64,000 bases of DNA from Rhodococcus sp. ARC_M6 (GTDB taxonomy: Bacteria > Actinomycetota > Actinomycetes > Mycobacteriales > Mycobacteriaceae): assembly GCF_022810305.1 (NCBI RefSeq), contig NZ_JALGQH010000002.1:1-64000 (forward strand), read 5' to 3'. Of this stretch, positions 4,528 to 7,883 are shown piece after piece. Below the pieces are notes generated by a model that saw only the letters and a list, made by a program, of their open reading frames with translations, did not search any database and was not told the origin of the DNA. Position numbers and translations under genes: made by a program. Positions within the stretch are counted from its first letter, which is position 1. Every line of letters starts with the position of its first letter.

Positions 4528-5223
4528 ATGGCGACACAGAAGACTACAAGTGACAAACCGCTCCGCAGTGACAAACCGCTCCGCAAGGACAAACCGCTCC
4601 GCAGTGACAAACCGCTCCGCAAAGACGCGGCAGAAAACCGCCGACGGATCCTGGATGCCGCGGCTCAGGTGTTCTTCGCCTCCGGCCTCGACGCTGCTGT
4701 TGAAGAAGTTGCCCGCGTTGCCGGTGTCGGCGTCGGCACATTGTATCGACGGTTCCCCAGCAAGCAGGCCCTGATCGATGAATTGGTCGGCGAGATGAGG
4801 CTGGGTTTGGCTGCTGCAGCTCGCGAGGCGACGAGTCGAGACGACGGGTCCGGACTCGAAGCACTGGTGCTCGAAACCGGAAAACTCCAGTCGGTGCAGT
4901 GGGCGTGTCTGCCGCAGTTGTGGGATCACTCGAATGCAGAACCGGATGCCCTCGAAGAGTTTCGCACCCGCACCGCCGAGCTTCTCGAGAACGCACAACA
5001 GTGTGGTCGCATCCGACGCGATATCACTCCCACCGATATCAGCATGTTGTTCTGGGCGCTGCGAGGTATCAGTGAGACATCGCATTCCATTGCACCCGAA
5101 GCCTGGCGGCGTCACCTGGAGATCGTGTTCGCCGGCATGCGGCCGGTGGCCGACGGACCCTTTTCGACGCCATTGCAGGTGAAGGCGCTCTCTGCCACGC
5201 AAGTTCGCACGATCAACCGGTAG
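4528..5223 (+). CDS. TetR family repressor with N-terminal hexapeptide repeats
   Basis: A 231-residue TetR-type regulator. The helix-turn-helix domain is residues ~36-85 (NRRRILDAAAQVFFASGLD then VARVAGVGVGTLYRRFPSKQ), followed by a ligand-binding C-terminal domain. It begins one nt after the MFS stop, so it is translationally coupled; ATG 4528 gives the expected start just before the repeats. The unusual part is residues 8-31: four copies of (S/K)DKPLR encoded by perfect or near-perfect 18-bp units, giving a long basic arm in front of the DNA-binding domain. Basic N-terminal arms can contact the minor groove in TetR proteins, but repeats like these are not typical. Likely represses its own operon. 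Confidence 0.85.
   Translation: MATQKTTSDKPLRSDKPLRKDKPLRSDKPLRKDAAENRRRILDAAAQVFFASGLDAAVEEVARVAGVGVGTLYRRFPSKQALIDELVGEMRLGLAAAAREATSRDDGSGLEALVLETGKLQSVQWACLPQLWDHSNAEPDALEEFRTRTAELLENAQQCGRIRRDITPTDISMLFWALRGISETSHSIAPEAWRRHLEIVFAGMRPVADGPFSTPLQVKALSATQVRTINR
4549..4620 (+). repeat. 18-bp in-frame tandem repeat x4
   Basis: Four tandem 18-bp units (AGTGACAAACCGCTCCGC; the third starts AAGGAC) encode SDKPLR, SDKPLR, KDKPLR and SDKPLR at the N-terminus of the TetR gene. Because the unit is a multiple of three, slippage would add or remove hexapeptides without breaking the frame. Near identity of the copies suggests recent expansion. Confidence 0.95.
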
Positions 5224-5342: not shown

Positions 5343-5510
5343 CTAAGCAGTGCTACCCAGGCTCGCTGAGTCGAAGCTGCCGAGCCCGGTGCTACCGAGA
5401 CCGCTGCTGCCGACGCCGCCCAAAGTGAGTGCGTTAGCGCTTCCCGCGTTGAAGAGCTGGAAAACTACGTTGATGACAACGGGGTCGCCGGTGAGCGGAT
5501 TGATGAACAC
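5343..5510 (-). CDS. Small Gly/Ser-rich peptide A, FNAGS family
   Basis: A 55-residue peptide starting at GTG 5510, with AGG about 8 nt upstream; an in-frame stop upstream (the end of peptide B) limits other starts. Residues 11-24 are hydrophobic and end in NVVFQLFNAGS, the core shared with the peptides at 5764 and 6017. The rest is a GLGS-type repeat tail (SSGLGSTGLGSFDSASLGS). It has no cleavable signal peptide and no Cys. It is the last of four small genes in a row on this strand, all downstream of a PucR-type regulator. Function unknown. Small unprocessed amphipathic peptides of this kind include the mycolylated PorA/PorH porins of corynebacteria, but no sequence match is claimed. Confidence 0.65.
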   Translation of the reverse strand: MFINPLTGDPVVINVVFQLFNAGSANALTLGGVGSSGLGSTGLGSFDSASLGSTA

Positions 5511-5573
5511 AGGGTGACCTGCTTTCTGTTTCGCGAGTAAATCGCATGTGAGCGTGTGGAACGGCGGTGAGTG

Positions 5574-5714
5574 TCAAGACCCGCCGAGACTGCTGAATTG
5601 AACACTTCCGGCACTGCCGAACGACACCACTGAGCCGTTGCCGAGGCCGAGTGCCTGGGAAAGAGAGCTGAAGTCGATTGCCAGGCTTCCCTGGAGGTAC
5701 TGACCGTAGTTCAC
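5574..5714 (-). CDS. Small Gly/Ser-rich peptide B
   Basis: A 46-residue peptide from GTG 5714, with AGGAA 6-7 nt upstream. It opens MNYGQYLQGSLAIDFSSLSQ and continues with a Gly/Ser-rich tail (LGLGNGSVVSFGSAGSVQF). It lacks the FNAGS core of its three neighbours but shares their size, Ser/Gly content, absence of Cys and of a signal peptide, and position in the same unidirectional run. Could be a diverged member or a partner subunit. No function can be assigned from sequence. Confidence 0.55.
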   Translation of the reverse strand: MNYGQYLQGSLAIDFSSLSQALGLGNGSVVSFGSAGSVQFSSLGGS

Positions 5715-5763
5715 GTTAATTCCTGTCTGCGCCGCGGCGGGGTGATGCGAGCGGGTAGAGCGA

Positions 5764-5907
5764 TCAGGGTGTGGGCGGCGTGGTGGTGCCGCCACCGCCG
5801 AAGAGATCCGTATTATCGGTGTACAGGAAGCTGCTGCCCGCGTTGAACAACTGCAAGACAGTGTTCACGACGACGGCCAATGCGCCTGTGGTTGGTGAGG
5901 AAATCAT
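5764..5907 (-). CDS. Small peptide C, NTVLQLFNAGSS family
   Basis: A 47-residue peptide starting at ATG 5907, with AGGAGC 7 nt upstream. Residues 8-21 form a hydrophobic or amphipathic helix (GALAVVVNTVLQLF) running into NAGSS. The tail is FLYTDNTDLFGGGG followed by Thr/Pro. The NTVLQLFNAGSS core aligns at the same position (about residue 15) in peptide D and with one-residue offset in peptide A, so the three are paralogues. No signal peptide and no Cys. A strong hairpin pair (5948-6007) separates it from peptide D upstream. Confidence 0.7.
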   Translation of the reverse strand: MISSPTTGALAVVVNTVLQLFNAGSSFLYTDNTDLFGGGGTTTPPTP

Positions 5908-5947
5908 GTATTTGCTCCTGGTCTCAGCGGGGGCCCTGTCAAGGCCA

Positions 5948-6007
5948 CCCCCCAAGTTGGGGGGCTAGAGCGGGGTCCCGTGCGAAGAATTCTGCACAGG
6001 ACCCCGC
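5948..6007. terminator. Two hairpins between peptide genes D and C
   Basis: On the minus strand, directly after the peptide D stop, a 9-bp stem pairs 5999-6007 with 5970-5978 (GCGGGGTCC arms). A second, very tight G/C hairpin (CCCCCCAA / TTGGGGGG, 5948-5964) follows. Neither has a good U-tract. They could partly terminate or stabilise the D transcript, making peptide D the most abundant of the four; this is inference. Confidence 0.6.
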
Positions 6008-6016
6008 GAGCAGTAC

Positions 6017-6130
6017 TTAAGCTACGCCGCCACCGTCGACCGAGCCGGTGTTGCTGCTGCCAGCGTTGAATGCCTGGAGGATGGTGTTCAGGAAGGCACC
6101 GAAGACTGCGTTACCCTGGCCGTTGTTCAT
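6017..6130 (-). CDS. Small peptide D, NTILQAFNAGSS family
   Basis: A 37-residue peptide from ATG 6130, with AAGGGGAT 5-7 nt upstream. It reads MNNGQGNAVFGAF, then NTILQAFNAGSS, then a short Ser/Gly/Asp tail ending GGGVA. Residues 9-21 can form an amphipathic helix. It is the first of the four small genes and lies 126 nt after the PucR-type regulator gene, with A/T-rich sequence (CTATAAAAG) upstream that could hold a promoter. It is too short for most gene callers. The conserved core, good ribosome binding site and paralogues next door are the reasons to call it. Confidence 0.68.
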   Translation of the reverse strand: MNNGQGNAVFGAFLNTILQAFNAGSSNTGSVDGGGVA

Positions 6131-6256
6131 GTAGATCCCCTTTATTGTTACCGGTTTGTGCGGTGATTCGCACCACACTTTTATAGCCCGCTGGGGAGTG
6201 GGAAAGTGTGACGGAAGCACCAAGAGTGGAAAGTTACTAGTGAGTTATGTGAGGTT

Positions 6257-7552
6257 TCACAGTTTCACTGGACGAATGTCCACATCGGTGCTGGCGAAGG
6301 CCAGAGAGATCATTGCAGCACGCAGTTTGAGCAGCTCAGAGGGCAGAGTCGGGTCCAATCCGGTCAGGTGAGCAATGCGCTTAATGCGGTTGTCGACGGT
6401 GTTCGTATGCAGTCCCAGCGCCGATGCGGTGCGCTGTCTGTGCTGGTCGTTCGCCAGGTGCACCGACAGCGTCTGGAGCAGCTCCGGGTTGTTGTCGAGC
6501 GGTTTGAGCAGGTTGATCAGGCTGTCGCGGCCTGGGCCGCCCCGAGTCAGCTGATATTCCAGCGCGAGGTCCTCCATCCGATATGGACGGGCCGGCAGTC
6601 TCAGCCGTCGGACGAGGTTGGCCAACTCTCGGGTGGTGGCCTCGGCGGCCGAGATGTCCTCGAGCGCGGAGTTCTCACCGATAGCCGTGATCTCCACCCC
6701 GATCTCCTCCTTCGCCTGGCGGATTACCTCACACACCGATCCCCAGTGGGGCGTGCCCTCGATGAGCACCAGACCACGTTGCGGCGCGGGAGCCTCGAGC
6801 AGTGCCGCCCCGAAGTGGGCGGCAATCTTGGCTTGCACTGCAGCCAGGCCGCGGTAGGCCTGGATTCGATGGTGCGCACCGTCCTTGACTCCCGGACGAG
6901 GCCGCGGCAGGCTCACAAGTAGCCGCAGTACGAGATAGCTAGGCGTGAGCTCGATGCCCATCTGCAACGCGAGCTGAGTGGGATCGTTTCCGTCCAGCAT
7001 CGCTTTGACGAGAGCGCCGGCCGAGTACTCCTCGAGCTCCACGCCGGCTGGCATAGCAGCCAGGTAGCTAACCGAGACGAATGAGTGAAGTCGCTGCGCG
7101 GCCGCGAACAGGAGGTGGTTGAGCTCCTCGAGATTTGCGGAATCCTCCTCCTCCGCCCGGCTCAGAATGAGGTTGCGGAAAGCGGTAACCCCCTCATCCA
7201 TCAGAGCGAGAATTGCACTGAGTGGGACCCCTTTGCGCGCCTGCCGGACAGTCAGGGTGTAAATGCTGTCCAACTCGTCGTCGGTCGGGAGTTTCTTGTG
7301 GTCCATGAGCCGGATCGTCAGTTGCAGACCCTGCGCGGTCGCCGCGACCAAGTCCTCCTGCACAGATTCCATGCGGAAGGACTTGAAGATCGGATTCTCG
7401 CGGGAGAAGTGATTCACAAGTTCCGCCGCCAGCGGGACGAAGTCTCGGACAGCTGCGGAGGCTGGTTTACCTCCCAGCATGAGCGGCCCCAGGGCTTTCG
7501 GCAGAGCGGGGGTGTTCAAGAGCGCAGGTGTGTTCAGCAGAGCAGGGGACAT
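6257..7552 (-). CDS. PucR-type transcriptional regulator
   Basis: A 431-residue regulator with a C-terminal PucR helix-turn-helix: LLQTLSVHLANDQHRQRTASALGLHTNTVDNRIKRI is the family's terminal pattern (segments LSVHLANDQHRQRTA and LHTNTVDNRIKRIAHLTG). The middle resembles the GGDEF-like/CdaR linker domain, and the N-terminal part is an all-alpha RsbT-like sensor region. ATG 7552 is chosen for the AGAGGAGG about 10 nt upstream; a start at 7576 is possible. The N-terminus has a short duplication, ALLNTPALLNTPALP. PucR/CdaR proteins usually activate metabolic genes, but here the only co-directional neighbours downstream are the four small peptide genes, making them its candidate targets. Confidence 0.8.
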   Translation of the reverse strand: MSPALLNTPALLNTPALPKALGPLMLGGKPASAAVRDFVPLAAELVNHFSRENPIFKSFRMESVQEDLVAATAQGLQLTIRLMDHKKLPTDDELDSIYTLTVRQARKGVPLSAILALMDEGVTAFRNLILSRAEEEDSANLEELNHLLFAAAQRLHSFVSVSYLAAMPAGVELEEYSAGALVKAMLDGNDPTQLALQMGIELTPSYLVLRLLVSLPRPRPGVKDGAHHRIQAYRGLAAVQAKIAAHFGAALLEAPAPQRGLVLIEGTPHWGSVCEVIRQAKEEIGVEITAIGENSALEDISAAEATTRELANLVRRLRLPARPYRMEDLALEYQLTRGGPGRDSLINLLKPLDNNPELLQTLSVHLANDQHRQRTASALGLHTNTVDNRIKRIAHLTGLDPTLPSELLKLRAAMISLAFASTDVDIRPVKL

Positions 7553-7883
7553 TGCGGGCGGGCCTCCTCTAGACATGTACGTCGCGTGGCGCGATGGCCA
7601 ACGGCTCGGCGCGTTACGGAGTGCGGAACCCGCTGCGGTGAACGAACTTGATGTCCCATTCGCCACTAACGTCCGCCGTGCCCGATTGCGCCAGGCGTTG
7701 TGATGTCTACCACATGAACGAGTGTCCAACTGTGAAATGGACCAATGAGTAATGGAACAAACTATCCCGATCGATCCCAGTGGAGTAGCGGTGGAATTAC
7801 CCGGTGGATCGACAAAGCTGTCCGTCGTATCCGCATCACTGCGCGCCGGTAATCGTGGGTGGGTTGAACACCCGCGTGCCGAC
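7553..7883. other. Intergenic region between ppc and the pucR-type gene
   Basis: About 330 nt without a convincing gene. Just after the ppc stop on the minus strand an 8-bp stem (CACCCGCG 7869-7876 with CGTGGGTG 7854-7861) may end the ppc transcript, though it lacks a U-tract. The remainder should hold the promoter of the PucR-type gene; no clear -35/-10 or repeat stands out. Confidence 0.5.

Follow-up and report, generated by a model that had tools for sequence, protein, structure and literature searches.

Four conserved micro-protein genes beside a PucR-type regulator in Rhodococcus and Tomitella: a candidate cassette for a mycomembrane channel

In the window, which here means the whole 64,000-nucleotide stretch of Rhodococcus sp. 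ARC_M6 DNA that was analysed, four tandem micro-genes (P1–P4; Table 1) lie behind the gene of a PucR-type regulator. We find that they are real, conserved protein genes, shown in silico to be under protein-level selection and to have remained linked to one clade of regulators through relocation and re-orientation. Weighing the comparative evidence, we lean towards reading the module as a regulated cassette that moves horizontally and encodes a small-peptide channel of the mycomembrane, which would work in the manner of PorA/PorH. The mycomembrane limits the uptake of mycolic-acid bacteria, and few small mycomembrane proteins are known outside corynebacteria; if this reading is true, a channel operon and its regulator could be named for the R. 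erythropolis group, and a replacement of one porin type by another, unrelated one would be suggested.

Peptide Genes and Their Conservation

An earlier note, made from the letters of the window, had reported four minus-strand frames, three with a shared core and none with Cys, and all of this was recovered in the window copies, with N-[TV]-x-[LF]-Q-x-F-N-A-G-S common to P1, P2, and P4 and P3 aligning as a possible diverged paralogue of the three. The window peptides also lack Lys and Arg, are acidic (net charge −1 to −2), and carry hydrophobic segments followed by Gly/Ser tails, which are long in P3 and P4, their Ser residues sitting among Gly, Ala, and Ser. P2 contains GSSFL, quoted as the ghrelin acylation motif in the part of PMC11066868 available to us, a likeness to which we give no weight. 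The helix moment yielded p 0.02–0.05 for P1, was borderline for P2 (0.04–0.07), and was not significant for P3 and P4. Across the 14 module genomes, the orthologues measure 37–59 aa and their N-termini are not basic. No Pfam match was returned for P1, P2, or P4 at E 1, and P3 matched only GerPB (E 0.093); none of the four reaches a Pfam or NCBIfam cut-off. The operon encodes nothing besides P1–P4, and no description of it was found in those parts of the open-licence PMC literature that were accessible.

Table 1. Coordinates of the peptide genes, the regulator, and the putative control elements in the window (SD, Shine-Dalgarno sequence).
Feature	Position	Strand	Details
P1	6017..6130	−	37 codons, ATG start, SD AAGGGG, core NTILQAFNAGSS
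P2	5764..5907	−	47 codons, ATG start, SD AGGAG, core NTVLQLFNAGSS
P3	5574..5714	−	46 codons, GTG start, SD AGGA, without FNAGS core
P4	5343..5510	−	55 codons, GTG start, SD AAAGCAGG, core NVVFQLFNAGS and Gly/Ser tail
PucR-type HTH regulator	6257..7552	−	431 aa, PF13556 E 1.5e-16
Palindrome TGTGA-N4-TCACA	6248..6261		putative operator of the peptide operon, overlaps regulator stop codon
Inverted repeat GGTG-CGAAT-CACC	6162..6174		candidate operator or 5′ leader hairpin upstream of P1
CRP/GlxR-like site TGTGGTAGACATCACA	7699..7714		upstream of regulator
Strong hairpin between P1 and P2	5970..6007	−	from folding and alignment
Second P1–P2 hairpin, CCCCCC-AACTT-GGGGGG	5948..5964	−	from sequence reading
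Terminator-like hairpin behind P4	5289..5330	−	−32.0 kcal/mol in the window

A search of 28 genomes of the genus with a profile of P1–P4 recovered the full set in ten, in each case in the same order, behind the same regulator, and with a Shine-Dalgarno sequence before every gene, in agreement with the ribosome binding sites that had been proposed. Tomitella biformata carries the regulator and all of P1–P4, and three other Tomitella genomes (genus g14) carry P1, P2, and P4, so that both the frames and their ribosome binding sites persist in sister species. Orthologues of P1, P2, and P4 each occur in all 14 module genomes, with the ribosome-binding sites kept in 14 of 14, and P3 is present in 11, not being found in the three divergent Tomitella. 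Between clades, dN/dS is 0.27 for P1, 0.22 for P2, 0.37 for P3, and 0.08 for P4, a substitution pattern other than that of non-coding DNA. The peptide alignments comprised 12 (A2) and 15 (A4) module sequences.

The codon choice of P1–P4 is of the highly expressed type: 51/59 of the codons considered end in C, compared with 511/750 for seven other genes of the window (p 0.003), a share near those of tpi (49/59) and pgk (68/85). For the module peptides of the 14 genomes, the share ranges from 0.74 (G016) to 0.96.

A search of 401 genomes of the family returned 20 with a match at E 0.01, comprising ten Rhodococcus, four g14, and six marginal genomes. In five of the marginal genomes, the matches fall inside longer frames (249–5,821 aa), which we read as parts of other proteins, and the strong matches are limited to the two genera, Rhodococcus and Tomitella. 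Named records among the matches are Rhodococcus erythropolis, R. qingshengii, R. globerulus, three Rhodococcus sp., and Tomitella biformata. At the order level (397 genomes, E 0.001), the genome of the window was alone in matching; the sample held no other carrier and therefore says little about the spread of the module.

Other identities for the frames were tried and rejected. The dN/dS values speak against non-coding frames, and the hairpin behind P4 against the frames being uORFs or leader peptides that belong to a larger gene. No Rfam RNA reached its gathering threshold in the window, one P4 query found no match in 72,556 plasmid records, and the search for a solved relative gave one match, at E 0.2.

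Regulator and Module Mobility

The regulator scores 60.4 bits against PF13556, the PucR C-terminal HTH (cut-off 27), and no second domain reached its Pfam cut-off. The regulators of the ten module genomes of the genus are 74–93% identical to that of the window, and those of the three other Tomitella are 40–41% identical and divergently oriented. A tree of 34 regulators (midpoint root, with a long-branch warning from the tool) groups all 14 peptide-linked sequences in a single clade (100/100) that excludes the 20 unlinked homologues; within it, the sequence from T. biformata is nested, weakly (89/66), among those of Rhodococcus.

The module adjoins ppc in clades A and B; in clade C it does not, and ppc is found at other places. 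In the two g14 genomes examined, its neighbours are azlD on one side and, on the other, a class II tRNA synthetase gene read here as glyS. A transfer of the module between Rhodococcus and Tomitella is the simplest reading of this tree and these neighbourhoods. The linkage of the tiny genes to the PucR-type regulator, proposed earlier from adjacency, is thereby strengthened: it recurs in 10 of the 28 genomes, involves a single regulator clade, and is accompanied by a conserved palindrome.

Eight loci of other rhodococci (L075–L082), which contain regulator homologues of 35–38% identity, were searched for adjoining tiny genes with a ribosome-binding site and few Lys/Arg, and nothing family-like was seen. 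Beside two such unlinked homologues, ORFs at L077 8863-9993 and L080 7292-8416 have CAGNAPIGGRSDGG in common, close to a C-terminus that is short or Gly/Ser-rich. A short repeat (DKPLRSDKPLRK..) was also noted in the window at 4550-4620, at the N-terminus of a TetR-type protein.

Control Elements and Hairpins

All 14 module genomes have the palindrome TGTGA-N4-TCACA, with variable N4, at −130 to −134 of P1; in the three divergent Tomitella, this position is intergenic. A single copy is present in the window against 0.04 expected; genome-wide there are four sites, as there are for the reversed control, and since the motif is thus no commoner than the control, the argument for an operator comes from its conserved position. 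An inverted repeat at the position of GGTG-CGAAT-CACC is found at −44 of P1 in 11 of the 14 genomes. Further upstream, TGTGGTAGACATCACA is likened to a CRP/GlxR site on what we take to be the consensus, and a site of this kind lies at −155 to −162 of the regulator in all nine upstream regions extracted from the 14 genomes, the start pattern not being found in the rest. A comparable site is seen at −244 of P1 in the three divergent Tomitella.

The strong hairpin that had been said to separate the first gene from the others folds in 11 of 11 main-lineage genomes (−34.1 to −44.4 kcal/mol), and the three other Tomitella have a hairpin of different shape behind P1 (−24.9 to −26.1). In an alignment of ten of the 11 main-lineage intergenic regions (A5; G013 left out), 4 of the 20 consensus pairs are changed on both sides, and two sequences break four pairs. 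The second P1–P2 hairpin retains just three consensus pairs in the alignment. Behind P4, a local hairpin is predicted in 14 of 14 genomes (−22.9 to −50.6), its sequence being unconserved between clades.

Related Tiny-Gene Arrays in Genus g6

A weak match in one g6 genome (G214, E 0.0075) proved to be a 25-codon gene within a tandem of tiny genes. The first gene of these arrays, Pa (37 aa, MGSAA..TSGSAA), was recovered from 30 of the 37 g6 genomes, and its variation is concentrated in third codon positions (2199, 1813, and 5157 for the three positions). In the array listing, which was limited to frames that have a ribosome-binding site and contain few Lys/Arg, Pa was located at 28 of 30 loci, later at all 30, and at each of the 28 at least one further tiny gene (23–42 codons, with a ribosome-binding site) follows it. 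Two g6 tiny genes (L162, L168) contain exactly LFSAGSS or LFNAGSS, and others contain LFAGGSS, LFSGISSSS, or LLALGSS.

When the profile of the window family was compared with those of two further array members, the score was 25.8 for Pb (best of 150 column shuffles, 12.6; hhalign probability 83%) and 17.7 for Pc (best of 150, 12.1; 13%), the value for Pb including a slight built-in selection, as one of its members was found via the window profile. No match was obtained between Pa and the window family: 7 of the 150 shuffles scored as well. The alignments used (A7, A8, and A9; 13, 8, and 12 sequences) were picked by eye from the 30 g6 loci.

The g6 arrays lie beside ppk2, the gene of a polyphosphate kinase 2, which is 157–167 bp upstream of Pa at 24 of the 30 loci and 1,020 bp upstream at one; no ppk2 was found within the flank at the other five, nor in the window or at the 14 module loci. 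In the arrays downstream of ppk2 (L162–L191), Pb begins MSAELG.. and Pc reads MELLAILLQLL..GSS, and three loci have a further tiny gene, Pd (28 aa, MLE..FINSQLFWFS..). None of the four g6 tiny genes tested (Pa–Pd) belongs to a Pfam or NCBIfam family.

Distribution of MspA-Type Porins

Neighbouring MspA-type genes, defined as PF09203 matches extending to the profile's end in adjacent genes, were counted in the 28 genomes of the genus by eye and then recounted. They are present in 15 of the 18 module-less genomes versus 0 of the 10 module genomes (Fisher 2e-5, a value that overstates independence because the ten module genomes form one clade). These ten are exactly those with a Ppc at least 93% identical, the next being 84%, and the MspA pair was probably lost in one event, not ten. 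The three module-less genomes without a pair are 74% complete (G017), 75% complete (G020), and divided into 610 contigs (G019).

Loss of the pair is not loss of the family. MspA-family genes, one or more, are retained in all ten Rhodococcus module genomes; in six of these (G001, G002, G012, G013, G016, and G022), a single MspA gene (E 1e-48 to 1e-52) outscores the lost pair, and Tomitella G101 likewise keeps a high-scoring one. The other three g14 module genomes have no MspA match, and G116 (g14, 81% complete, without a module match) has one.

A near-universal, distant MspA paralogue (profile 2-177) was also observed besides the neighbouring pairs in the 28 genus genomes, as was the single high-scoring copy, which is found in clade C, G016, and G010. 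In the wider family sample, an MspA match at E 1e-20 was obtained for 158 of 201 genomes, and the 43 that lack one include every listed genome of g3, g4, g21, and g24, genera which we regard as places to seek micro-peptide channels.

Proposed Function and Alternatives

As we picture it, one PucR-type regulator and a four-micro-protein operon would make up a self-contained cassette, in which the regulator may bind TGTGA-N4-TCACA and switch the operon, with a probable CRP/GlxR-type input upstream of its own gene, and the hairpin behind P1 could set a dosage of P1 different from that of P2–P4. The acidic peptides, which carry no Sec signal, would reach the mycomembrane by the same route as corynebacterial PorA/PorH and would probably be O-mycoloylated on Ser of the AGSS core or Gly/Ser tail. 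As short membrane segments, they may assemble into a hetero-oligomeric, probably cation-selective channel that would stand in for the neighbouring MspA-type genes lacking in module genomes.

We favour a channel because of the complementarity with the MspA pair and the position of the g6 relatives at ppk2, the porA/porH neighbourhood, and the retention of a single MspA gene in six of the ten module genomes lowers its odds slightly. The same evidence bears on the earlier suggestion of mycomembrane or surface peptides, which gains from the first two observations and is weakened by the high-scoring MspA genes of those six. It also bears on what we see as the main competitor, in which P1–P4 are lipidated structural peptides forming no channel, either ProtX-like or a hydrophobic coat for adhesion or contact with oily substrates. 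The localisation evidence is the same for both, and P3 and P4, with their long Gly/Ser tails and no significant helix moment, suit a structural role, as does the persistence of MspA-family genes; the MspA-neighbour complementarity and the porA/porH-like position of the g6 relatives point instead to a channel, and we think a purely structural role fairly unlikely.

Conserved small peptides adjoining a dedicated regulator, with P4 so strongly constrained, would also fit secreted signals sensed via the PucR-type protein. We give this a slim chance, as no leader or processing site is apparent in P1–P4, the operon has no transporter, protease, or receptor gene, and four paralogues with differing tails would be unusual for a signal. 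Small leaderless peptides in tandem, with hydrophobic segments and an apparent history of movement between genera, likewise recall leaderless multi-peptide bacteriocins or PSM-like amphipathic surfactants. The former are cationic as a rule, the net negative charge of the window copies and their lack of Lys and Arg do not fit, and the module has no immunity or export gene, making this origin slimmer still. Equally improbable are soluble intracellular micro-proteins, such as modulators of the regulator, for which the position of P1–P4 outside any Pfam or NCBIfam family leaves room, but to which the hydrophobic segments with Gly/Ser tails and the ppk2-side relatives in g6 are ill matched. Protein-like substitution and the universally kept ribosome-binding sites leave next to no chance that the frames are spurious and untranslated.

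If the channel reading is taken further, PorA/PorH-type micro-peptide channels might form a broad and rapidly evolving class, encoded by tandem micro-genes and spread across the mycolic-acid bacteria. In the R. erythropolis group and Tomitella, a mobile, self-regulated, four-peptide version would then have taken over from the neighbouring MspA-type genes as principal mycomembrane channel, giving a gene to the R. erythropolis channel of 2000. We offer this broader proposal tentatively, and with some doubt. The channel reading itself, if right, would supply a rule for finding more unannotated envelope peptides: to look for micro-genes in tandem whose products combine a short hydrophobic segment with an AGSS-like core, and which in one genus lie beside ppk2.

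Comparison with Known Systems

According to the accessible parts of PMC3792995 and PMC5944148, corynebacterial porA/porH are flanked by groEL2 and ppk2, a position that led to the discovery of C. jeikeium porA, for which BLAST gave no clear match. The portion of PMC12632848 available to us describes PorA, PorH, and ProtX as having no recognisable signal; that of PMC11066868 places the mapped O-mycoloylation sites of C. glutamicum on Ser among Gly/Ala/Ser; and that of PMC5310785 reports MytC orthologues for Rhodococcus. From these excerpts, PorA, PorH, and ProtX resemble P1–P4 in being very small (40 aa for C. jeikeium PorA) and without a Sec/Tat signal, and PorA/PorH further resemble them in their tandem genes and mycolic-acid hosts, the ppk2 neighbourhood being also that of the g6 relatives of the window peptides. 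Unlike porA/porH, the window module has four genes, a dedicated PucR-type regulator, and apparent horizontal mobility, and we do not class it as a PorA/PorH member because it is not beside ppk2.

MspA-type porins (PF09203), such as PorARr/PorBRr of R. ruber and PorARc, are cell-wall channels of rhodococci in the part of PMC9233653 that we could consult. They have the role proposed for P1–P4 but, unlike these, are ~200 aa in length, have signal peptides, and contain the PF09203 domain, which P1–P4 lack. The distribution of their neighbouring genes is complementary to that of the module.

The remaining point of comparison is a small channel protein of R. erythropolis, reportedly described by Lichtinger, Reiss, and Benz in 2000 as strongly cation-selective, with a partial sequence that is said to have had no match at the time and a reported mass of 8.4 kDa. 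This mass exceeds that expected for 37–55 residues; the protein comes from the same species group as the module carriers.
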